From the IMG/VR virus record IMGVR_UViG_3300023118_000236, positions 1-34,961 of that record: DNA of 34,961 nt; one strand, given 5' to 3'. The DNA comes from a virus. A model generated the notes under the pieces. The model did no database searches and was not told the origin of the DNA. It saw only the letters and a list, made by a program, of their open reading frames with translations. Of this stretch, positions 16,895-33,655 are shown piece after piece. Position numbers and translations under genes: made by a program. Position 1 is the stretch's first letter. Each line of letters starts with the position of its first letter.

Positions 16895-17350
16895 ATGGCA
16901 AAAACACGCAGCAAAGCTGACATCGAAAAGCTAAAGGGCTATGCGAAGCTCCTATTTGTGAGGGACAAACTATCGCAAAAGGAAATTGCCCAACGTACCG
17001 AAATTTCAGAGAAAACCATAGGAAAGTGGGTTAATGATGGACTTTGGGATAAGGAGCAAAAAAACTTCGTACTAACCCGCCAAGAGCAAATGAGCAACTT
17101 GCTTGACGAACTTACAGAGATAAATAAGTTCATTAAGGATAAACCGGAGGGACTTCGTTTTGCCGATAGCAAATTAGGAGATGTTCGCCGTAAGCTAATC
17201 AAAGACATTAAGGAACTGGAAACTAAAGCCAGTAAGCCAGAAGCGATTGGGTCATGCATAGCCCTGTTGGATTTTATACGTAAAGTGAATTTGGGGAAAG
17301 CCCAAGAGATAGCACCCCTTGTTGATGCGTTTATTAAATCTATTCTATAA
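16895..17350 (+). CDS. Terminase small subunit (DUF1804-like, Mu gp27 type)
   Basis: A 151-residue DNA-binding protein. The N-terminal helix-turn-helix is clear (residues about 15-50: YAKLLFVRDKLSQKEIAQRT, then EISEKTIGKWVNDGLWD), followed by a helical C-terminal part. This is the layout of DUF1804-type small terminase subunits, which recognise phage DNA and recruit the large subunit. It is the first gene of the rightward operon and its stop overlaps the large subunit start by one base (TAATG). Confidence 0.85.
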   Translation: MAKTRSKADIEKLKGYAKLLFVRDKLSQKEIAQRTEISEKTIGKWVNDGLWDKEQKNFVLTRQEQMSNLLDELTEINKFIKDKPEGLRFADSKLGDVRRKLIKDIKELETKASKPEAIGSCIALLDFIRKVNLGKAQEIAPLVDAFIKSIL

Positions 17351-18861
17351 TGAGCACACTGGCAGAGGATAGAAAAGCACAGTTATTTTGGGATGGTTTT
17401 TTGAAAAACCTACTTCGTGCTGCTGTTGTGGATACGACAGAAACAGAGGAGGAGAAACTAAACCGCATTGCTTGGCTGGAAGCACCCGGCAATGAAGAGG
17501 AATGGAATAAATACTATTTTCCAAACTACTACAAATCAGATGCAGCACCGTTCCACAAAAAAAGCACCAAGTGGCTCTTTGCCCACATGGAGGGCTACTT
17601 AGTTAGGGCATGGAGTAGGGAGATGGCTAAGGATGTGCGCACCATGATGGAAACGACACGCCTCGGACTTACTAAAAAGAAAAAATTAGGGCTACTCGTA
17701 AGCAGTAGTGCAGACAAGGCAGTACTCCTTTTAAAACCCTATAAAATCAATTTTGAAAGCAATCCACGTATTATTAATGACTATGGCGAACAAATAACCT
17801 ACGGGGCATGGACTGAAAGCGCATTTAGTTGCAAATGTGGTATAACCTGGGTGGCTATTGGTAAAGGTCAAACACCACGTGGATTACGAAACGAGGATGT
17901 TCGCCCCGACTTAGTTGTAATTACCGATATGGACACGGATGAGGATTGCCGTAACCCCGAAATGATAGCCAAAGATTGGGCGTGGTTTGAAAAAGCTGTA
18001 TATGGTACTCGGTCGGTAAGTGAGCCGTTTTTAGTAATATTTCTTGGTAACATCATAGCAGAAGATTGTACTATTAACAATGCTATAAAAGTAGCCGACA
18101 GGGTTGAGGTCATCAACATTGAGGATGAGGACGGCAACTCCAACTGGCCGCAAAAGAACAGTCGTGAAATGATTGCCCGAATAAAAAGCAAAATCAGTTA
18201 TGCGGCTTTTCAAGGCGAGTACATGAATAACCCTATTACAGATGGCAAGACCTTCCCGGACATCTACTTTAAAAAGATGTTGCCATTAAAGCAATACTCA
18301 TTTTTAGTAAGCTATTGTGACCCGTCATACAAGAATGGTAAGAAAAACGACTTTAAAGCCGTGGCTTTGGTAGGTAAACACAAATCAGAATACCACGTCA
18401 TAAAATGCTATTGCGCACAAACCACGACTGATATTATGCTACAATGGCATTACATGATTATGCGATTTGTGGCATTCATTGTCAATGTTTTTTACCTTAT
18501 CGAGTGGCCGTGGATCGATGACCCTTTAAAACAGGAGATAGCAACCATTAATGCAATCGAAAACGTTACGCTACCCCTTAAAGCCGATGAGCGGGATAAG
18601 CCCGACAAATACATGAGGATTGAAAGCTTGCTTGAGCCATTAAATCGCAACGGCTATTTGTGGTTTAATATCGATGATAAAGACAACCCACACTCGGTTG
18701 CTATGCGTGCGCAGTTCAAAGCATTTGGCCCAAAGAGCCGGGCGCATGATGACGGCCCCGATGCCGTTGAGGGAGCTGTGTTTACCATTAATAGCAAAAC
18801 CATTAACGACCCCTCAAAAGTAACCGTAATCAAACAGCAAACCCGTAATAACCGAAGATAA
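17350..18861 (+). CDS. Terminase large subunit (Mu gp28 type)
   Basis: A 503-residue packaging motor and nuclease. The ATPase half carries a Walker B-like stretch, LVVITDMDTDEDCRNPE (about 195-210), and a conserved GNIIAED motif. The nuclease half has SYCDPSYKNG (first catalytic Asp, about 323) and HDDGPDAVEGAVF (last Asp, about 470), typical of the RNase H-fold terminase nuclease. No textbook P-loop (GxxxxGKT) is visible; the segment WSREMAKDVRTMME (about 90-103) is where a divergent Walker A would lie. Family membership is secure from the whole pattern. Spacing to the next gene is 3 bp. Confidence 0.92.
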   Translation: MSTLAEDRKAQLFWDGFLKNLLRAAVVDTTETEEEKLNRIAWLEAPGNEEEWNKYYFPNYYKSDAAPFHKKSTKWLFAHMEGYLVRAWSREMAKDVRTMMETTRLGLTKKKKLGLLVSSSADKAVLLLKPYKINFESNPRIINDYGEQITYGAWTESAFSCKCGITWVAIGKGQTPRGLRNEDVRPDLVVITDMDTDEDCRNPEMIAKDWAWFEKAVYGTRSVSEPFLVIFLGNIIAEDCTINNAIKVADRVEVINIEDEDGNSNWPQKNSREMIARIKSKISYAAFQGEYMNNPITDGKTFPDIYFKKMLPLKQYSFLVSYCDPSYKNGKKNDFKAVALVGKHKSEYHVIKCYCAQTTTDIMLQWHYMIMRFVAFIVNVFYLIEWPWIDDPLKQEIATINAIENVTLPLKADERDKPDKYMRIESLLEPLNRNGYLWFNIDDKDNPHSVAMRAQFKAFGPKSRAHDDGPDAVEGAVFTINSKTINDPSKVTVIKQQTRNNRR

Positions 18862-19301: not shown

Positions 19302-22022
19302 ATGGAAAATCAAAATATTCAGGTAACAGGGTTTATGAAGCCTGCTGACAAAACAGCGGATGGCAACCCTCAACCCATTATCCTACAAAACATCACTGTC
19401 AGGCCAATAAACAGGCAGAGTCAGGATATTAAAAAATGGAGAGCTGCGCACAGGTCAGCGGAGGGATACATACCCCGCAGGGTATTGCTTTATGACCTGT
19501 ATGCAGATGTCATGCTTGATGGCCACGTTATTGCGGTTACTGGCAAAAGGGTTGATGCGGTTACAAAGGCCAAATGGCACTTTGTTGATAAAGACGGAAA
19601 GCCTGTTGATGCGGTTAATGACATCATTGATAGTATCGGATTTAGTGATTTATTAAAAGAGATTGTCAACTCCAAATTTTGGGGTTACTCAATGATTGAG
19701 TGTGATTTCTTTAAAGATTTCCGGGGCAACATGGCCATGACCGCTTATCAGTGCGATCGTAAGCACATGAGGCCTGATCTGGGCATTATTTCACAAGATC
19801 AAAACACGGATACAGGTATTAACATCCGGGATGGCATTTACCCAAGCTTTATACTTGAAGCGGGTAACCCGAAAGATTTAGGGTTACTACTTTCCGCAGC
19901 GCAATACGCCATATTGAAAGATGGTGACTTGAGCGACTATTCTGCATTTGTGCAAACTTTTGGACAGCCCATATTTGATGCGGAGTGGGATGGCTTTGAT
20001 GAGAACCAACGTTTAAAACTGGTAGAATCATTAACAGGTGTTGGCCCCGGCGGAGTAGTTACTCGCCCATCAGGGACTAAGGTTAATTTACTTGAAGCAA
20101 AGGCTAACGCCGATGGCAAACTGCATACCGGCTTATTTGACATTTGTAACAAGGAAATTAGCAAAGCGTTGATTGGAAGTACCGAAGGCACAGAGTCAAG
20201 CGATAGCAGTGGATATGCACAATCACAAACTCATTTACAGGTTGAGAGCAATAAGAACGAAACCGATATTGATTTTGTTAGGCGTATTTTAAACAGCCGA
20301 TGGTTAAAGATTTTAGAGGATAATGGCATTGATACCAAAGGTGGTAAAATCGTTGTTCAGGAGAGCGAAGAGCAGCTATCTAAAAAGGATGCATTTGATA
20401 TTTATAAGTCAATGATGAAAGATTTGGGAATCCCTATTTCCGATGATTTTTTCTACGAAAACTTTAATGTGCCGAAACCCGATGATTACGACACCCAAAA
20501 AGCTGCATTAGAGGCTAAAAAGGCACAATTTGAGGAAAATAGCAACCCTCAAAACCCCGCTAATAATGCAGATACCCCCCCTGTTAAGTCAGGCAAAAAA
20601 AGCAAAAAGCCCGATGATGAGGGCGGTGATTCTGCACCAAAGCCCGGCAAGTTGGCAAAGCTTATTGATGCTGTTGGCTCTTTTTTTCAAGCAGCCCCGG
20701 CGCAAGTAGCGACCGGGGCGACAATGACCCCAGTGGTGATGATGGGCTGCTGTGGCAACCACCCGCAGGCTATTGAGCGGTACATATCACTTGGTGATAT
20801 AAAGCAGGAAAACAGCGACCTTATAGAGCGCATGTTCAATGGTGCGGGTAACATTACTTTTGATGCCACGTTATTTCAAAACACCGCTCAAACGTTGTTG
20901 GATGGATTGCAGCAGGGTTGGATTGGCAAGCCGATGGTTGAGCTTGCCGATCTCGGTTTTACATACGGCATTGATGACCCTGCATTGTTAACCTCTTTTG
21001 AAATGAATTTATTTCGCTTTGCAGGTGTTAAGACACTGGCCGAGGCGCAAGAGCTTAACAGAATATTCAGACAGTCAAAAGGCTTTCCGGACTTTAACCA
21101 AAGAGCTAATCAGGTTACAGATACCTTTAACAAGGTATGGCGACAAACCGAATACCAAACCGCCTACCTCACAGGTGAAAGCTCCGCAACATATGTAAGG
21201 CTCATGAAGCAAACGGAACTATTTCCATACTGGGAATATAAAACCGTTGGTGACAGCAAAGTAAGGCCGGAGCATGCCGCTCTTAATGGGTTGATATTGC
21301 CCGCTAATGATCCACGATGGAATAAGATTTATCCCCCTAATGGATGGAATTGCCGTTGCTACGTTGTACCACGTACTAAAGCGGAAGTGGAAGGCATAGA
21401 CGTGAAAGCAAACCGTGCTAAAGCTGATGCCTATTTTGATAGTCCGGAATTTAAAACAGCGGATGCGCAGGGATGGGGTGTTAACCGGGCGGTTACCGGG
21501 GAGGTGTTTACAGCCAATCAGCAATATATTAGAAAGTTTGAGGGTAAGGCATCTAAAACACTCAATAGCCTCGGAAGTACTGATTTTGGGTTGAAATCAT
21601 ACAGCCAGGCTAAAAAGATAGCGAAGGAAGCCATACCCGAATATAAGGACACCGCTGATAAGTTCTTTAAAGACCTTTTAAAAGATGGTAAAAGCATTTT
21701 AAACGACTACAACAACCGACCTATTGAACTGAATGAGGGCAATTTTAGAGCCCATACAACGGGCAAAAAAGACGTAAGGGTAAAATACCTTGAAGCGATG
21801 AAACAAACGCTTTTGAACCCGGATGAGGTTTGGCTAAACGGTGCTAAGTTGAATGATTTGGTTTACATCAAATATTATAATGATGAAACCCTTATTGTTA
21901 TTGCGGATGTGACCAAAGCCAATGTTACCGAGGTTAGTACTTGGTATCCGTTAACCGAAAGCAAGGTAACTATAGAACGTGCAAGGAAAGGTCTATTGAT
22001 AAAAAGCGGGGTAAAAAAATAA
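19302..22022 (+). CDS. Portal (DUF935) - gpF minor head - nuclease-like (PBECR) fusion
   Basis: A 906-residue protein that joins functions encoded separately in Mu. Residues about 1-400 are a DUF935 portal (QSQDIKKWRAAHRSAEGYIP, FWGYSMIECDF, ESLTGVGPGGVVTRP, SSGYAQSQTHLQV), the DNA channel of the head. A Pro/Lys/Asp-rich linker follows (about 415-460). Residues about 510-710 match the Mu gpF-like minor head family (QTEYQTAYLTGES, WEYKTVGDSKVRPEHAALNG, NGWNCRCYVVPRTKAEV with the conserved Cys pair). The C-terminus, about 790-906 (FRAHTTGKKDVRVKYLEAMK, NPDEVWLNG, YIKYYNDETLIVIADV), looks like the PBECR-type nuclease domains often attached to gpF proteins. No internal stop or shift was seen. Confidence 0.88.
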   Translation: MENQNIQVTGFMKPADKTADGNPQPIILQNITVRPINRQSQDIKKWRAAHRSAEGYIPRRVLLYDLYADVMLDGHVIAVTGKRVDAVTKAKWHFVDKDGKPVDAVNDIIDSIGFSDLLKEIVNSKFWGYSMIECDFFKDFRGNMAMTAYQCDRKHMRPDLGIISQDQNTDTGINIRDGIYPSFILEAGNPKDLGLLLSAAQYAILKDGDLSDYSAFVQTFGQPIFDAEWDGFDENQRLKLVESLTGVGPGGVVTRPSGTKVNLLEAKANADGKLHTGLFDICNKEISKALIGSTEGTESSDSSGYAQSQTHLQVESNKNETDIDFVRRILNSRWLKILEDNGIDTKGGKIVVQESEEQLSKKDAFDIYKSMMKDLGIPISDDFFYENFNVPKPDDYDTQKAALEAKKAQFEENSNPQNPANNADTPPVKSGKKSKKPDDEGGDSAPKPGKLAKLIDAVGSFFQAAPAQVATGATMTPVVMMGCCGNHPQAIERYISLGDIKQENSDLIERMFNGAGNITFDATLFQNTAQTLLDGLQQGWIGKPMVELADLGFTYGIDDPALLTSFEMNLFRFAGVKTLAEAQELNRIFRQSKGFPDFNQRANQVTDTFNKVWRQTEYQTAYLTGESSATYVRLMKQTELFPYWEYKTVGDSKVRPEHAALNGLILPANDPRWNKIYPPNGWNCRCYVVPRTKAEVEGIDVKANRAKADAYFDSPEFKTADAQGWGVNRAVTGEVFTANQQYIRKFEGKASKTLNSLGSTDFGLKSYSQAKKIAKEAIPEYKDTADKFFKDLLKDGKSILNDYNNRPIELNEGNFRAHTTGKKDVRVKYLEAMKQTLLNPDEVWLNGAKLNDLVYIKYYNDETLIVIADVTKANVTEVSTWYPLTESKVTIERARKGLLIKSGVKK

Positions 22023-22050: not shown

Positions 22051-22164
22051 ATGGGATTAATAATCAACTGCGCTGGTATCAGCCACCAAAGCCCCCATCA
22101 TCCCGAGGTGTTGGCTCTGGCTTACCGCAGTAAACCACTTGCAATACAAATGTATAAAAAATGA
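22051..22164 (+). CDS. Possible 37-residue ORF before gpG
   Basis: This is the only candidate gene in the 138-bp gap after the portal fusion. It starts at ATG 22051, encodes 37 residues with no recognisable features, and its TGA overlaps the next gene's start (ATGA), which would suit translational coupling. The composition is not convincing and the gap may be untranslated. Confidence 0.25.
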   Translation: MGLIINCAGISHQSPHHPEVLALAYRSKPLAIQMYKK

Positions 22165-22694
22165 GCGCAGCAAACAACAGTTTTAAAATAGCCGCCTTTT
22201 TCGCAAAACAGGAAGATAAAATCAAAGCGGTGATACCTCAAATGATAGCCGAAACCGCCGTTGAGTTTTATAAGGAGTCTTTTAGAAATAAAGGGTTTGA
22301 TGGGATACCGTGGAAACCAACTAAAAAAACAGTGAGAAAAGGTTCATTGATGGTACGCTCCGGCGCACTGGTTGCCTCAATAAGGCCGGGAAGTGTTACG
22401 CCCGATAAAGTGACCATTCAGGCCGGGAGCAGTAAAGTACCTTATGCCAAAATACAGAATGAAGGTGGTAAGATTAGCCGAGCGGCAAGAACGGAAACCT
22501 TTGTACGCAACCGCTATACCACAGGAAAAAAAGGTAAAATGTTTGGTGGCATGGGGGCTTACAAAAAAGGCACTACAGCCGGGCGGGGGTTAACGTTCAA
22601 AGCTCACAGTTACAATTTTCCTGCCCGGCCATTTATGGGCCAATCCGCTTTGTTAAATCAGCGAATAATTGACAGAATTAAAAAAATCATGTAA
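22161..22694 (+). CDS. Virion morphogenesis protein (Mu gpG-like)
   Basis: A 177-residue basic protein. The pattern WKPTKKTVRKGSLMVRSGAL, then PYAKIQNEGGKISRAAR and the C-terminal PARPFMGQSALLNQ, is the signature of the phage virion morphogenesis family (Mu gpG), related to head-tail completion proteins that help join heads and tails. It follows the portal-gpF fusion as in Mu. The start ATG at 22161 is preceded by an A-rich stretch. Confidence 0.88.
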   Translation: MSAANNSFKIAAFFAKQEDKIKAVIPQMIAETAVEFYKESFRNKGFDGIPWKPTKKTVRKGSLMVRSGALVASIRPGSVTPDKVTIQAGSSKVPYAKIQNEGGKISRAARTETFVRNRYTTGKKGKMFGGMGAYKKGTTAGRGLTFKAHSYNFPARPFMGQSALLNQRIIDRIKKIM

Positions 22695-23130: not shown

Positions 23131-23157
23131 AGAAAGCCGCTTACTGAGCGGCTTTTT
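23131..23157. terminator. Bidirectional terminator between converging operons
   Basis: AAAGCCGCT (23133-23141) and AGCGGCTTT (23147-23155) form a 9-bp stem with a 5-nt loop and T-runs on both strands. It ends the rightward packaging operon and the leftward small-gene operon, overlapping the last codons of the latter. Confidence 0.9.
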
Positions 23158-23464
23158 GATGTTCTAATAAAATAGTTTGCTCTGATCTTACGGTTTCCCC
23201 TTTTATGTTTTCCAATTGGTGGTACTCTTCACCATTTTTAAAATATCTAAACCACTCTTCCATAAAGAATGTGTAGGTATAAATCCACTTACCACGGTAA
23301 CCACATATCTTTAAATTTGGTGGCTCTACCTCACTTGAAAGTACAGGCATTTTGGGGCTTTCAGATCGCTTGACATCAAGCCGTTCAAAATAATCACTAA
23401 AAAAATCCCTTATGGTTTTTTCAAGTACTTCAAACGTCAAATCATTAGTTGTTGCCATAGCCAA
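23141..23464 (-). CDS. Hypothetical protein (107 aa)
   Basis: I do not recognise this protein. It is soluble and rich in aromatic residues (KWIYTYTFFMEEWFRYFKNG). The start is 23464 or the ATG at 23458 (MATTNDLTFEVL). It is the last gene of a three-gene leftward unit and its 3' end forms half of the bidirectional terminator. It lies between early/middle genes and the late modules, where Mu keeps regulatory genes, but nothing in the protein itself shows DNA binding. Confidence 0.65.
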   Translation of the reverse strand: MAMATTNDLTFEVLEKTIRDFFSDYFERLDVKRSESPKMPVLSSEVEPPNLKICGYRGKWIYTYTFFMEEWFRYFKNGEEYHQLENIKGETVRSEQTILLEHQKAAQ

Positions 23465-23471
23465 ATATAAA

Positions 23472-23783
23472 TTAACTCCAATTAAAAAACGGATACTTTT
23501 TTAATAGTTGCTTGCGTGTGGTGGCTTTTAATCGAAGTTGTTTAATGAAGTCTTGCCTTGTCATTAACCGTTGAGCAATTACAGTTTCGCTCAAAAAGAA
23601 CTCCTTACTAAGGTTGATTAAACACAGATCGTAACGCAACCCCACTAAGTGACCATGATAAAAAAAACGACTGGCCAAAGCATCATCCCGCTCATCTGTA
23701 AAACAACCTTTAACGTGTTTTTCAGATGCAAGTGTTAAATCATTAGAGACGATTGCCATTAAGGCTTTTTGACCACGCAGCAT
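23472..23783 (-). CDS. Hypothetical protein (103 aa) with possible helix-turn-helix
   Basis: A helical, basic protein. The stretch CLINLSKEFFLSETVIAQRL (about 53-72) followed by MTRQDFIKQL reads like a helix-turn-helix (a 'feature for starting' helix, a turn, and a recognition helix), and the C-terminus is very basic (RKQLLKKYPFF). It sits where Mu places its middle and late activators (Mor, C), so it is the best candidate in this window for the late activator, but this is inference. The family was not identified. The ATG at 23783 was used; 23759 is an alternative. Confidence 0.65.
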   Translation of the reverse strand: MLRGQKALMAIVSNDLTLASEKHVKGCFTDERDDALASRFFYHGHLVGLRYDLCLINLSKEFFLSETVIAQRLMTRQDFIKQLRLKATTRKQLLKKYPFFNWS

Positions 23784-23836: not shown

Positions 23837-24040
23837 CTACATCGGGGTTAACTGTTCAGGCGCAGGCACCATGTCTTCTAATAAGCTACAGAATGTAGTG
23901 AGCATCAAACCATCAAGTTTGTTGTCTGGGTTTTGATTACCCAGTAAAAAGACAAGGGATTTAAAAACATTAACATAATCCTCCTTGTCACCGTTCATTG
24001 TAATAATAATCTTTCTCTCTTTTTCCTCAAAATCAACCAT
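23837..24040 (-). CDS. Hypothetical protein (67 aa)
   Basis: A small acidic protein, MVDFEEKERKIIITMNGDKE followed by a hydrophobic helix region (NVFKSLVFLLGNQ). No family recognised. It is the first gene of the small leftward unit that ends at 23133, just downstream of the terminator of the putative non-coding RNA (24100-24131). Confidence 0.6.
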   Translation of the reverse strand: MVDFEEKERKIIITMNGDKEDYVNVFKSLVFLLGNQNPDNKLDGLMLTTFCSLLEDMVPAPEQLTPM

Positions 24041-24099
24041 GCGTACGTACCCTTTTTGTTTAATCAGTGTGTCAGTTCAACGTTTAGATAGGTAGAAGC
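24041..24099. other. Gene-free stretch next to the RNA unit
   Basis: Together with 24132-24143, 24261-24293 and 24302-24343 this makes up the unassigned part of the 327-bp gene-free region. Apart from the palindrome GTACGTAC at 24043-24050 I see nothing specific in it. Confidence 0.4.
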
Positions 24100-24131
24100 A
24101 AAAAGGCTGTTCATAAAAAAATGACGCAGCC
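24100..24131 (-). terminator. Intrinsic terminator (minus strand)
   Basis: On the minus strand GGCTG, CG, TCAT pairs with ATGA, A, CAGCC around a T-rich loop, then T5 (plus coordinates 24131 down to 24100). No protein gene lies between it and the preceding terminator at 24344-24361, so it most likely ends the non-coding transcript described at 24144-24287. Confidence 0.7.
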
Positions 24132-24287
24132 GGTATTCTTAAAGCCCATCAAGGGGTACGAAACCCTATACACGCAGAAAGATACAGCCACGCCATTTTA
24201 CTGGCGTACTTAATGGCTCGTGTTGCGTGTATCTTTGTTTTCGTACTTTAGATGATGGGCAACACTTTGATTAGTACAATATTTTTA
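24100..24287 (-). ncRNA. Candidate structured non-coding RNA
   Basis: The centre of a 327-bp gene-free stretch (24041-24367). It folds as one long rod: GCCCATC (24144-24150) with GATGGGC (24254-24260); GTACGAAA (24156-24163) with TTTCGTAC (24239-24246); then either AAAGATACA (24178-24186) with TGTATCTTT (24228-24236) or ATACACGCA (24168-24176) with TGCGTGTAT (24224-24232); and a terminal hairpin ACGCCA (24190-24195) with TGGCGT (24202-24207). On the minus strand a promoter-like box lies upstream (24294-24301) and a terminator downstream (24100-24131), defining a transcript of about 185 nt. No family is recognised. It could instead be a DNA recognition element. Confidence 0.6.
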
Positions 24288-24293
24288 ACCTTA

Positions 24294-24301
24294 CAAAGTT
24301 A
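24294..24301 (-). promoter_or_regulatory. Promoter -7 box for the candidate RNA
   Basis: On the minus strand TAACTTTG matches TAnnTTTG exactly. It lies between the terminator of the upstream operon (24344-24361) and the structured region. The -33 region is AT-rich with no clear TTTG, so the promoter is tentative. Confidence 0.4.
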
Positions 24302-24343: not shown

Positions 24344-24361
24344 AAGCCCCTTTCGGGGCTT
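24344..24361 (-). terminator. Intrinsic terminator of the middle operon
   Basis: AAGCCCC (24344-24350), loop TTTC, GGGGCTT (24355-24361): a perfect 7-bp stem followed on the minus strand by a T-rich stretch, 7 bp after the stop of the gene at 24368-24562. Confidence 0.85.
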
Positions 24362-24367
24362 ACATAA

Positions 24368-24562
24368 TTATTGTTGAATCATCTGTGCATTAATTTGCCT
24401 GACAATTATTTGTGGTGATTCCTTGACGATTATGCTTGTACCGTCAATGTTCTGTAATAACGTTTGATCATCCCCGGCGTCTTGAAAATTACTAATTGTA
24501 AGTTGGTTTATCCAAATTACCGTGTTATTCCCCATGTCCGTAACTTTAATAAAGTTTGCCAT
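24368..24562 (-). CDS. Hypothetical protein (64 aa)
   Basis: A small protein, MANFIKVTDMGNNTVIWINQ, with alternating hydrophobic strands, suggesting a small beta-barrel. No family recognised. It is the last gene of the middle operon, directly before a strong terminator. Confidence 0.65.
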   Translation of the reverse strand: MANFIKVTDMGNNTVIWINQLTISNFQDAGDDQTLLQNIDGTSIIVKESPQIIVRQINAQMIQQ

Positions 24563-25737: not shown

Positions 25738-25764
25738 TTTAAATAGTTTTAAATACCCTTTAAA
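25738..25764. repeat. Phased TTTAAA repeat cluster
   Basis: TTTAAA at 25738, 25748 and 25759 (steps 10 and 11), between the GemA-like gene and the lipoprotein gene and covering the stop codon of the former. Confidence 0.8.
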
Positions 25765-26144
25765 TAGTCGGTGTAAACCAATTCAAACTGTGAAACAAGC
25801 GTTGGTAACTCCGAATATTTAAATTGATCTAATGGCTTATTTTTGCCCGAAAAGCGGATGCACCAATTATTAACCCTAACCATATCAACCCGGCCATCAA
25901 GTAACTCCCAGTGCATTTCATGAGCATGGCTTAATATTTTCCTTCGCATCTTATCAGATGGGTTGCCCTCCTGGCCTAAATATGTGTTAAGATATTTAAC
26001 TATCTCCTGCGCTTCTTTTTGAGTTAAGTCCGTTATGTGTACCGTGCGTTCATCGCTAAAAGAGGCTACTATATCCTCCTTTTGAGCGGTGAGCCCTGCT
26101 TTATTAAGCAAGGCCCTAATCATTCCTATTTGTCTACCTGTCAT
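25749..26144 (-). CDS. GemA-like (Mu gp16, DUF1018-type) regulatory protein
   Basis: A 131-residue protein: MTGRQIGMIRALLNKAGLTA, then VHITDLTQKEAQEIVKYLN, then KMRRKILSHAHEMHWELL. The order of two helical motifs (an N-terminal 'lookup' helix pair with a threonine/lysine-rich loop, and a central lt.kEa..iv.yL helix) resembles the phage GemA/gp16 family. In Mu, GemA modulates host gene expression and DNA supercoiling. It lies after the replication genes as in Mu. Moderate confidence; the C-terminal part differs. Confidence 0.55.
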   Translation of the reverse strand: MTGRQIGMIRALLNKAGLTAQKEDIVASFSDERTVHITDLTQKEAQEIVKYLNTYLGQEGNPSDKMRRKILSHAHEMHWELLDGRVDMVRVNNWCIRFSGKNKPLDQFKYSELPTLVSQFELVYTDYLKGI

Positions 26145-30774: not shown

Positions 30775-31647
30775 TTATTTTCCTTTCAATAAATTTTCTT
30801 TGTGTACAAGGCGTTTGATTCTGCGCATATCAATGCTGTTTTCATCAACTGTGCAGCTATCATTGAGTATGGTATTTATTTCAAATAGATCGGTGATGCC
30901 ATTGGCTCGTAACACAGCGGCACCGTCTGCTCTTGAAGGGGATGGGATTTCAGCGAAGCGGCCACCTAAACGGCTATAAAGTTCGTTATAGCACATTTTG
31001 GTACGCTGTAAGCCGTCAACTATGCGTTTTTTCAGGTTTGGAGTACCAATAAGGCAGATACCGCATTTATCCTCTACCTCATTGTACAAATCAATGATAT
31101 TGAAAAGGGTATTGTTGGGTACTTTTTCCAACTCATCGATGATGATTACCGGGCTTTCAAGGCGTTCAATAATCCTCACAACTTCGTTTAAAAGGGCATT
31201 TATTGAGCGCATTGTGTGGTTTTTTCCCATGCTTCTCAAAAGCTCCTGTAACATTTCGCTCTCACTTGTATGCCTTTTACACTTCACATAAAAAACATTC
31301 TCGTTTTGCTTCCTAAAGTTGTTAAGGGTGTGCGTTTTGCCACCGCCCGGCTGACAGATTATACCGTATGTTTCAGCGTATTTTCTTGAGTCGTTGAATA
31401 TTTCAGATAAAGCCTTTGTTGGTTCGGTATCTGCATGTATCCATTGCTCATCTAACTTTATGCCTAATGCGTTTGCCATTTTACGCCACATATCATCGGC
31501 TATATCACCATGCTTATCATTCAGCATTTTGCTAATAGTTGCGCCTGATATGCGTAAGCTTGCTTGTGCCTTGTTTGCGCTACCGGCATTTACACAGTAG
31601 TTGCTTAATTCTTGAATAATCGTTTGTTTTGTAGTGTTGTCTATCAT
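30775..31647 (-). CDS. MuB-like AAA+ ATPase (transposition target DNA activator)
   Basis: A 290-residue protein with an N-terminal helix-turn-helix (about 15-45: AQASLRISGATISKML) and an AAA+ domain: Walker A QPGGGKTH (99-106), Walker B VIIIDELEK (167-175), a sensor LIGTPNL (about 199-205), and an arginine-rich end. MuB binds target DNA, protects against self-integration and stimulates the transposase. Its place directly downstream of the MuA-like gene is as in Mu. The start at 31647 lies after a short gap containing a weak hairpin. Confidence 0.93.
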   Translation of the reverse strand: MIDNTTKQTIIQELSNYCVNAGSANKAQASLRISGATISKMLNDKHGDIADDMWRKMANALGIKLDEQWIHADTEPTKALSEIFNDSRKYAETYGIICQPGGGKTHTLNNFRKQNENVFYVKCKRHTSESEMLQELLRSMGKNHTMRSINALLNEVVRIIERLESPVIIIDELEKVPNNTLFNIIDLYNEVEDKCGICLIGTPNLKKRIVDGLQRTKMCYNELYSRLGGRFAEIPSPSRADGAAVLRANGITDLFEINTILNDSCTVDENSIDMRRIKRLVHKENLLKGK

Positions 31648-31699: not shown

Positions 31700-33655
31700 T
31701 TATAATGCTTGTCTCCAATCAAAGCCCCCGGTGCTTTCAGGCACGTGGCCAGTCAATACCTTTTGCGCTTTGTGGCTTACTTCTTTAATGGTTACACCCG
31801 CTTGTAATAGGCTGTTAGCGTCGATATTTGCCCGTTGTAGTATCTCATCGTAAGCGTTCATGCTATCGGCTACGTGTTGGTTAATTTGCTTTTTAAAGTC
31901 CTTTAAAACATTAAAGCGGTGCATGTCACCTTCTTTAAAATCAGCCAGTGCCGAAGGCATTTTTTGCACTTCGCCCGCAACAAACCGTAATCCTTTACCA
32001 TCGCTTACAAGCACTTGACTCATATCGTAAGGATCATAGGTTATTTCAATTTTCTTGTTTACATTTTCGATGTACAAGTCATTTGATATGTCGTAAGTGA
32101 GGCGTTTGCGGTTGATTTCAACCTGTATGCCTGCTGCGGTAATTCTGTTGGCATGTGGGTGTTTGATGCCAAATAATTGCAGTCGTTTTTCGGTACTGAT
32201 AGCACGTTTTTTGGCAAAATTCGACTCGTTAAAGGCTTTTAACCACTCATTTTGGCGAGTTAAACCCGTTGCCGGGTTAACGGTTTGGCGCATGTTTTCA
32301 ATGAATTGTGCGATATATTGAGGGGCTTGCTCCTTAGTTGGGAAGTCTTTTCTTGCCATTTGGACCGCATCAGGGTTTCTTTTCTCTTTAGCGGTGATGT
32401 TAAATCCCGAATAATTGGGGAATAATTTGAGTTGTTGATGCCAAACTACGCCAAAGCTCCTCTCAATATATTTAGCCTGGGCTACTTTGATAGTGGCCGG
32501 GGTAAAGTGTGCCTGATCTTTAAAGAATGTAGCAAGCTCGCCCTCTTTTTTCGGGTCAATAGCCCAATTATCCGTTTGTATCTGATGCCACAAGTAGTTA
32601 CCACCTGTCATTTCCTTTACATGGTTAATTGCGTTGCGGTAAGCGGCTTTTATTAGCTCAATAGTATTCGTTTCACCTACAGCATAGCCTAAAATGTAAT
32701 CATTAAAGGCATCTGCTACCACGTATAGAGTAGGGCGGTAGTAATCGTTAGTGCTTTTGCCGTTTTTGAGTGTTTCTCGAAAATAAAGGTCAATTACGTT
32801 ATCATCAGAATTAATGAGCATCAATGGTGATGATGGCCTTTCCCTCTGTGAGCGTTTGCTAAACTGGTTATAGTTGATAGCTGCACCATCCCGGCTAAGG
32901 GTAGTTACAATGGCCTTTTTCTTACGCCAATACCCCACTGTTTGGGGGGTAATTGCAGCATAATTATTCTTTAAAGCCCATTTGTTATAATACTGGGCGA
33001 TTATAGTATCATCGTGCTTTTTATCATTGGCTATCATCTTAACCAATACCGCCTCTGCAACGCCGTCTTTAACTTTTTTACTGTTATTATTGCCGAAACG
33101 CCAAGCCTCTATCATGCAGGGGTATCCCTCCTGTTTATAGTCTTTTAGTTTATCCTTTAGCCTCCGCTCGTTAATGGGTAATGCAACGTCATTAGCCCTA
33201 ATCAAATCACCCGCTAACTCCCAAAATGCAGCGATACTTATGTTTAAAGACTGTTTTAAAGCTCTTTTATCAGTTGTGAAATGGTTTATTGCATTTAACC
33301 AAGTAGCTGCTTTAGTGTATTTATCTACATACTCTTCCGGTAGTCCGAGGGTAGAATTTGGTAACACATATTTATTGTACCAGTCAGAAGCAACATAATC
33401 CCAGTTGATTTTCACATAGTCAACCAGTGGTTGCTTTGCAATGTATTCGTAGGGCTTGCCGAATTTTTGCAGTATCCCGGCTTTTCTGTCTGCGGGTAAG
33501 GTTTCATACTCTATCAACACCTCACGACCATTGCCGCCACGTCCTATGATCGTGATACGGTTACGCTTCTTGTCAGATTTGTATGTTTCTATGCCAAAGC
33601 ATTCAACATACTCATCGTATTCAAGGCATAATATGTTTTTGTTATGGTACTTCAT
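31700..33655 (-). CDS. MuA-like DDE transposase
   Basis: A 651-residue transposase that inserts phage DNA into the host chromosome and replicates it by transposition. The RNase H-fold catalytic core has candidate acids Asp284 (LINSDDNVID), Asp362 (IQTDNWAI) and Glu398 (AKYIERSFG). N-terminal DNA-binding modules precede it (to about 260), and a C-terminal MuA-type beta-barrel (LTYDISNDLYIENVNKKIEI) and a helical tail that should contact the MuB ATPase follow. Length matches the MuA family. It is the second gene of the early operon, after the Cro/Ner-like regulator. An odd early start is excluded by the hairpin just upstream. Confidence 0.96.
   Translation of the reverse strand: MKYHNKNILCLEYDEYVECFGIETYKSDKKRNRITIIGRGGNGREVLIEYETLPADRKAGILQKFGKPYEYIAKQPLVDYVKINWDYVASDWYNKYVLPNSTLGLPEEYVDKYTKAATWLNAINHFTTDKRALKQSLNISIAAFWELAGDLIRANDVALPINERRLKDKLKDYKQEGYPCMIEAWRFGNNNSKKVKDGVAEAVLVKMIANDKKHDDTIIAQYYNKWALKNNYAAITPQTVGYWRKKKAIVTTLSRDGAAINYNQFSKRSQRERPSSPLMLINSDDNVIDLYFRETLKNGKSTNDYYRPTLYVVADAFNDYILGYAVGETNTIELIKAAYRNAINHVKEMTGGNYLWHQIQTDNWAIDPKKEGELATFFKDQAHFTPATIKVAQAKYIERSFGVVWHQQLKLFPNYSGFNITAKEKRNPDAVQMARKDFPTKEQAPQYIAQFIENMRQTVNPATGLTRQNEWLKAFNESNFAKKRAISTEKRLQLFGIKHPHANRITAAGIQVEINRKRLTYDISNDLYIENVNKKIEITYDPYDMSQVLVSDGKGLRFVAGEVQKMPSALADFKEGDMHRFNVLKDFKKQINQHVADSMNAYDEILQRANIDANSLLQAGVTIKEVSHKAQKVLTGHVPESTGGFDWRQAL

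Follow-up and report, generated by a model that had tools for sequence, protein, structure and literature searches.

A pseudoknotted RNA of a Mu-like phage and its relatives with competing loop pairings in Bacteroidota transposons

The c4 antisense RNA of phages P1, P7 and P4 (RF01695), on which Citron and Schuster reportedly worked (as cited in PMC8201110), can pair with a copy of its partner sequence where the following gene begins, and blocked translation and termination are the results. Structured RNAs of insertion sequences, namely the omega RNA of TnpB and the IS110 bridge RNA, use a loop for pairing, and the partner of this loop varies. IsrK of the Gifsy-1 prophage exists both as a small RNA that ends at a terminator and as the 5' portion of a longer read-through mRNA, in which two alternative structures decide on translation; it activates translation in trans on its own read-through mRNA, and its locus is an antirepressor/antiterminator locus (PMC4825925). 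Here we describe a structured RNA on the minus strand of the virus record IMGVR_UViG_3300023118_000236 (34,961 bases, analysed over its whole length and called the window below), at a place where an earlier note had proposed an independent small RNA gene.

The RNA resembles c4 in being a mobile-element RNA that can pair with a partner copy at the start of the following gene. Such a 3' target copy over the downstream gene start is found in most relatives linked to IS1595 transposons, but not in the phage copies. RF01695 matched neither the window nor 15 related loci, and c4 differs further in that the present RNA has another fold with crossing helices, a specificity sequence presented by a loop, other hosts, and mutually unrelated downstream genes instead of icd/ant. 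Its logic appears to resemble that of c4 and IsrK, but the tests made do not place it in the c4 family. With IsrK it may share the layout of terminated small RNA and read-through leader, of which the promoter-like box and the U-tract are known here from sequence. IsrK differs as a trans-acting translation activator of an antirepressor/antiterminator locus, and no diversity of loop types has been described for it. In contrast to the omega and bridge RNAs, the transposase associated with the present RNA is a DDE enzyme of the IS1595 type, with no such enzyme noted beside the phage copies, and the loop covaries with the leader of a passenger gene.

Our preferred reading, with a probability of roughly 0.55, is that the minus strand encodes a pseudoknotted RNA some 175 nucleotides (nt) long, which belongs to an unlisted family and acts as a pairing switch, and which in the phage is a terminated small RNA or an attenuating leader. 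From the comparison of sequences, we infer that the switch controls cargo genes of mobile elements. A three-way covariation was observed, in which the loop has two competing partners: the 5' strand B1, and B3, which repeats B1 right next to the start codon of the downstream gene in most IS1595-linked relatives (for the other parts, see Table 1). Comparison of the family members shows two conserved sets of alternative pairings, A1:A2 versus A2:A3, and B1:loop versus loop:B3.

Mutual information, computed on a MAFFT alignment over mostly pairable columns only, ranks B1:loop, Pg, Pe, loop:B3, Pb and A2:A3 among the highest pairings. As Pa, Pb, Pg, A2:A3 and loop:B3 lay outside the covariance model used to collect the members, they are not biased by the collection; B1:loop, Pc, Pe and the apical hairpin were part of it. 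Relatedness of the sequences inflates cell counts, with 86.1% of cells paired in state I (Pa, Pb, Pc, B1:loop, Pe, Pf, Pg) and 93.7% in state II (A2:A3, loop:B3, Pg). Changes on both sides are seen in 23 of 37 pairs of state I, which scores 0.297 for covariation (0.132 when shuffled, 0.02-0.10 when slid), and in 11 of 21 pairs of state II, which scores 0.334 (0.175 when shuffled). The number of loop types is less dependent on kinship: there are 32 different loop strings among 53 members, and a complementary B1 of at least 6 base pairs (bp) is present in 48 of the 53, some of the others being failures of the automatic hairpin finder. Among distant members, A2:A3 together with a U-tract was detected automatically in 18 of 22, compared with 43% in shuffles, so that this test is only moderately discriminating.

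The nested stems proposed in the earlier note are all present, namely 8 bp GCCCATCA/TGATGGGC, 7-8 bp GTACGAA(A)/(T)TTCGTAC, 9 bp ATACACGCA/TGCGTGTAT and 6 bp ACGCCA/TGGCGT. The nested fold is nevertheless incomplete, since helices formed by GTACT (24273-24277) and GTGTTGC (24259-24265) cross it. Both Pa and Pb cross the helices Pc, B1:loop and Pe, and a further crossing is that of B1:loop with Pg; the RNA is therefore pseudoknotted. The minus strand from 24287 to 24100 (188 nt) folds better than its shuffles in the comparison that the earlier note had suggested (-59.4 kcal/mol against -38.7 +/- 4.0, z -5.2, 0/200 as good), and so does the core from 24262 to 24144 (z -6.4, 0/200 as good). The plus strand folds as well or better, because the sequence is an imperfect palindrome, and folding alone is thus not decisive for the strand. 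Wobble pairs would read as A-C mismatches on the other strand. On the predicted strand, 116 of the non-Watson-Crick helix cells are G-U and 16 are A-C, and for A2:A3 alone the numbers are 52 and 0. Together with the U-tract, this excess identifies the minus strand as the RNA strand.

The terminator of the upstream operon and the TAnnTTTG box (TAACTTTG) are both found where the earlier note had placed them. The box lies 15-16 nt upstream of the conserved GTACT in the window and in L033, L039 and L054; some other members have weaker forms, and several have a hairpin near the place of the box instead. The second terminator of the earlier note (24100-24131) exists as a hairpin, but is not kept in sibling phages. 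In contrast, a T-rich tract follows A3 in aligned members, and the tract at 24115-24121 is conserved directly after A3, which pairs with 24185-24195. The RNA therefore probably ends near 24115, and the suggested size of about 185 nt has been revised to about 175 nt.

A first covariance model, built from the window sequence alone, gave full-length matches in 29 of 400 genomes from the family of Mucilaginibacter sp. L3T2-6, with a best E-value of 1e-28, although E-values of these models are rough. A second model was made from a plain MAFFT alignment of 30 members. Of 395 genomes sampled from the class, 15 had a match to it, as did 40 of 150 from one genus, where a single genome can have up to four copies. 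Searches with blastn against phages, plasmids and syntenic relatives returned nothing or chance matches, and an exact-pattern scan of viral contigs returned one true match (L076, 131.6 bits, equal to the score of phage L063) among chance hits. A tRNA scan found nothing at the feature. Rfam 15 (including c4 RF01695, 6S-flavo RF01685 and Pedo-repair RF01715) had no match in the window at E<=1, or over the RNA in the 15 related loci at E<=5, in line with the statement of the earlier note that no known family was recognized. A 6S-like RNA was rejected, given the unmatched 6S models and the several copies per genome. Searches of the open-access literature gave no account of a comparable RNA, either linked to IS1595 elements or from these bacteria, which is weak evidence. 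Sequence comparison gives good support for a hitherto unlisted RNA family on mobile elements of Bacteroidota, of which the RNA is a member.

Many chromosomal copies have a DDE transposase of the IS1595 family close by (Pfam DDE_Tnp_IS1595 and Zn_ribbon_IS1595). The ends of seven elements, each with the RNA inside, were mapped from matching terminal inverted repeats (GGYAWTTATANACAAANNTAACC and its variants) and perfect 8-bp target duplications. Apart from transposase and ends, the structured RNA is their sole common part. The transposases are about 45-78% identical, whereas the passenger genes are mostly unrelated to one another; the passenger proteins lack informative NCBIfam or PADLOC matches and can be assigned to families little or not at all. 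Most passengers start directly after B3. No inverted-repeat pair of the IS1595 type with an 8-bp target duplication surrounds the RNA of the window. Of the proposal of an independent small RNA gene, a structured RNA with a promoter-like box and without a known family is supported, but in most chromosomal relatives the RNA is the 5' leader of a gene. The RNA of L060 (the same element as L066:4649-4832) is a chimera of two specificity types, one providing the 5' half and the other the 3' half, with the junction in the most conserved segment; its loop and B3 still match.

The RNA occupies the same gene junction in two further Mu-like phages, L063 (a prophage in G403) and L167 (G810), and is also present in L068, a less related phage-like region. 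It is absent from other relatives that share the junction (L004, L017-L020, L031). Between L063 and L167, aligned DNA blocks are 84-86% identical and the RNA is 97% identical; from promoter region to U-tract, 5 of 178 positions differ, and two of these together make up a single compensatory exchange, from G-C to C-G, within B1:loop. Compensatory changes in homologous prophages, which the earlier note had named as a test, are thus present among the window, L063 and L167. Between the window and L063, the RNA region is the best-scoring DNA match, while the proteins are mostly 24-74% identical. These comparisons indicate that the RNA is under purifying selection in phages. The phage copies and most distant members lack B3. 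A match ahead of the ATG at 24040 of the window, GGGTACGTACGC (24041-24060, minus strand), contains a 7-bp complement of the loop hairpin (CGTACCC); its reading as a degenerate B3 was dropped, because L063 and L167 lack it.

The switch could work as follows. The middle strand, consisting of A2 and the hairpin loop, would be held by the 5' copies A1 and B1, or alternatively be released to the 3' copies A3 and, where present, B3. The pairing A2:A3 would set the U-tract behind a stable helix and end transcription, and in transposon members loop:B3 would cover the start codon of the passenger and block its translation. Computed energies allow an exchange of partners, as A2:A3 (-16 to -19 kcal/mol) is the more stable pairing compared with A1:A2 (-5.5 to -9.7 kcal/mol), and B1:loop and loop:B3 are balanced. 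In the phage, only the termination arm would be left in cis, between the promoter-like box and the genes 23837-24040, mor-like and 23141-23464. Transcripts from the TAACTTTG promoter would mostly stop near 24115, and read-through would be needed to reach these three genes. As B3 is missing there, the phage RNA is most likely a terminated small RNA or an attenuating leader; it could equally be the leader or attenuator of the downstream open reading frame (ORF) and the mor-like gene.

Several points weigh against the pairing switch. Phage copies without B3 lack half of its logic, stem strands separated by about 55 nt are unusual for an intrinsic terminator, a TAnnTTTG promoter is not obvious in many chromosomal copies, and a ligand could be involved. 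The last point leads to a riboswitch, with the pseudoknot as the aptamer and A2/A3 with the U-tract (plus B3) as the expression platform. The complex pseudoknot, the conserved unpaired segments (GGCTGTATCTTT, TTGTACT), the leader position and the two mutually exclusive states would fit such an RNA. We nevertheless consider it unlikely, as the downstream genes are mutually unrelated and share no pathway, so that no common metabolite is suggested; moreover, the hypervariable loop tracks its partner rather than forming a fixed pocket, and the translational arm is missing from the phage copies. The absence of B3 there, the promoter-like box and U-tract, and the strong selection on the RNA would also suit a purely trans-acting small RNA, whose loop would pair with transcripts made by the host or by other mobile elements, so that the genes behind the RNA in the phage would play no part. 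IsrK provides a precedent for trans action on a related transcript (PMC4825925). This alternative also appears doubtful to us, because no target was found, the loop is engaged by the internal B1 in nearly all members, and most relatives have the partner in cis. Action of the short phage RNA in trans, as for the prophage RNAs c4 and IsrK, is possible within the pairing-switch reading as well; no trans target of the short RNA was found.

A function at the level of DNA, either as a recombination site like attC or as a transposon end, with the fold formed by a single DNA strand, would explain the imperfect palindrome, the conservation of the site before unrelated genes, and the break of the L060 chimera at the most conserved segment. 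It is very improbable. An attC-like site should have no strand preference for wobble pairs, whereas the G-U excess lies on one strand, and the U-tract and start codon have a fixed orientation. The recombination site was rejected for this strand bias, and a transposon-end structure because the transposon ends map elsewhere, with inverted repeats and target duplications of their own.

The hypervariable loop might, on a more speculative note, define specificity groups, and an element could then use its RNA to silence or activate, in trans, the cargo of related elements. We regard such RNA-based immunity or cross-talk among Bacteroidota phages, transposons and conjugative elements as a tentative idea, with the odds clearly against it. 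The pairing switch itself, with a loop that covaries with two competing partners, gives a concrete model, accessible to mutation, of how phages and IS1595 transposons might control their cargo. The RNA seems to form an unlisted and widespread family that marks mobile-element cargo in Bacteroidota, and its covariance model offers a computational handle on such cargo genes, which are mostly unannotated.

Table 1. Parts of the RNA, phage genes, and delimited IS1595 elements (window positions unless a locus is named)
Feature	Positions	Strand	Remark
Whole RNA, about 175 nt	24115-24289	-	5' end inferred via -7 box, 3' end via U-tract
Intrinsic terminator, upstream operon	24344-24361	-	
TAACTTTG, Bacteroidota-type -7 promoter box	24294-24301	-	retained in phages L063, L167, L068
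Pa 5' strand GTACT	24273-24277	-	partner AGTAC 24206-24210; crosses nested stems
Pa 3' strand AGTAC	24206-24210	-	
Pb 5' strand GTGTTGC	24259-24265	-	partner 24220-24226; compensatory GTGCTGC/GCAGCAC in L063
Pb 3' strand GCAACAC	24220-24226	-	
Pc 5' strand GCCCATCA	24253-24260	-	partner 24144-24151
Pc 3' strand TGATGGGC	24144-24151	-	
B1, GTACGAAA, 5' partner of loop	24239-24246	-	
Specificity loop TTTCGTAC, B1-complementary	24156-24163	-	
Pg, hairpin AGGG/CCCT presenting loop	24152-24167	-	
Pe 5' strand ATACACGCA	24224-24232	-	partner 24168-24176
Pe 3' strand TGCGTGTAT	24168-24176	-	
A1, ACGCCA, apical hairpin partner of A2	24202-24207	-	
A2, TGGCGTGGCTG	24185-24195	-	partner A1 or A3
Most conserved segment GGCTGTATCTTT(N)TGC	24174-24189	-	
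A3, GGCTGCGTCA, 3' partner of A2	24122-24131	-	terminator-like strand
U-tract after A3	24115-24121	-	conserved family-wide
Local hairpin (24105-24131) and U5	24100-24131	-	not kept in L063 and L167
Transposase	31700-33655		
MuB-like ATPase	30775-31647		
Terminase	17350-18861		
Portal/pilot	19302-22022		
Neck	22161-22694		
Conserved 103-aa protein, putative mor-like	23472-23783	-	Mu mor position only
67-aa ORF downstream of RNA	23837-24040	-	kept behind RNA in L063 and L167
IS1595 element	L065:419-4107		
IS1595 element	L067:12053-15645		
IS1595 element	L069:5202-8615		
IS1595 element	L070:2407-6587		
IS1595 element	L074:3364-6675		
IS1595 element	L119:3551-7035		
IS1595 element	L120:3763-6991		

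The gene set of the window is that of a Mu-like transposable phage, and relatives of the portal protein are found in Mucilaginibacter, Pedobacter and Sphingobacterium genomes; the phage is a Mu-like phage of Bacteroidota. The RNA lies on the minus strand between a putative GemA-like gene (25749-26144), whose product is taken for GemA-like without a significant Pfam match, and the gene for the 103-aa protein, downstream of which a further gene follows (23141-23464). The 64-aa ORF immediately upstream of the RNA (24368-24562, minus strand) resembles FlbD by a Pfam match above the cut-off (PF06289, E 4.5e-6).

At the same junction, a prophage of Pedobacter sp. BS3 has a different structured intergenic stretch (L018:14440-14610, minus strand), with two perfect 13-14-bp stems in the order a-b-a'-b', i.e. 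that of a pseudoknot. Three RNA copies (L161:3483-3670, L162:3897-4082, L165:3137-3318) are located upstream of mutually homologous ORFs that appear RadC-like; RadC-like genes are common on mobile elements. A distant copy (L115:2217-2407, L032) precedes a response-regulator-like gene, in a region that was read as conjugative-transposon-like.
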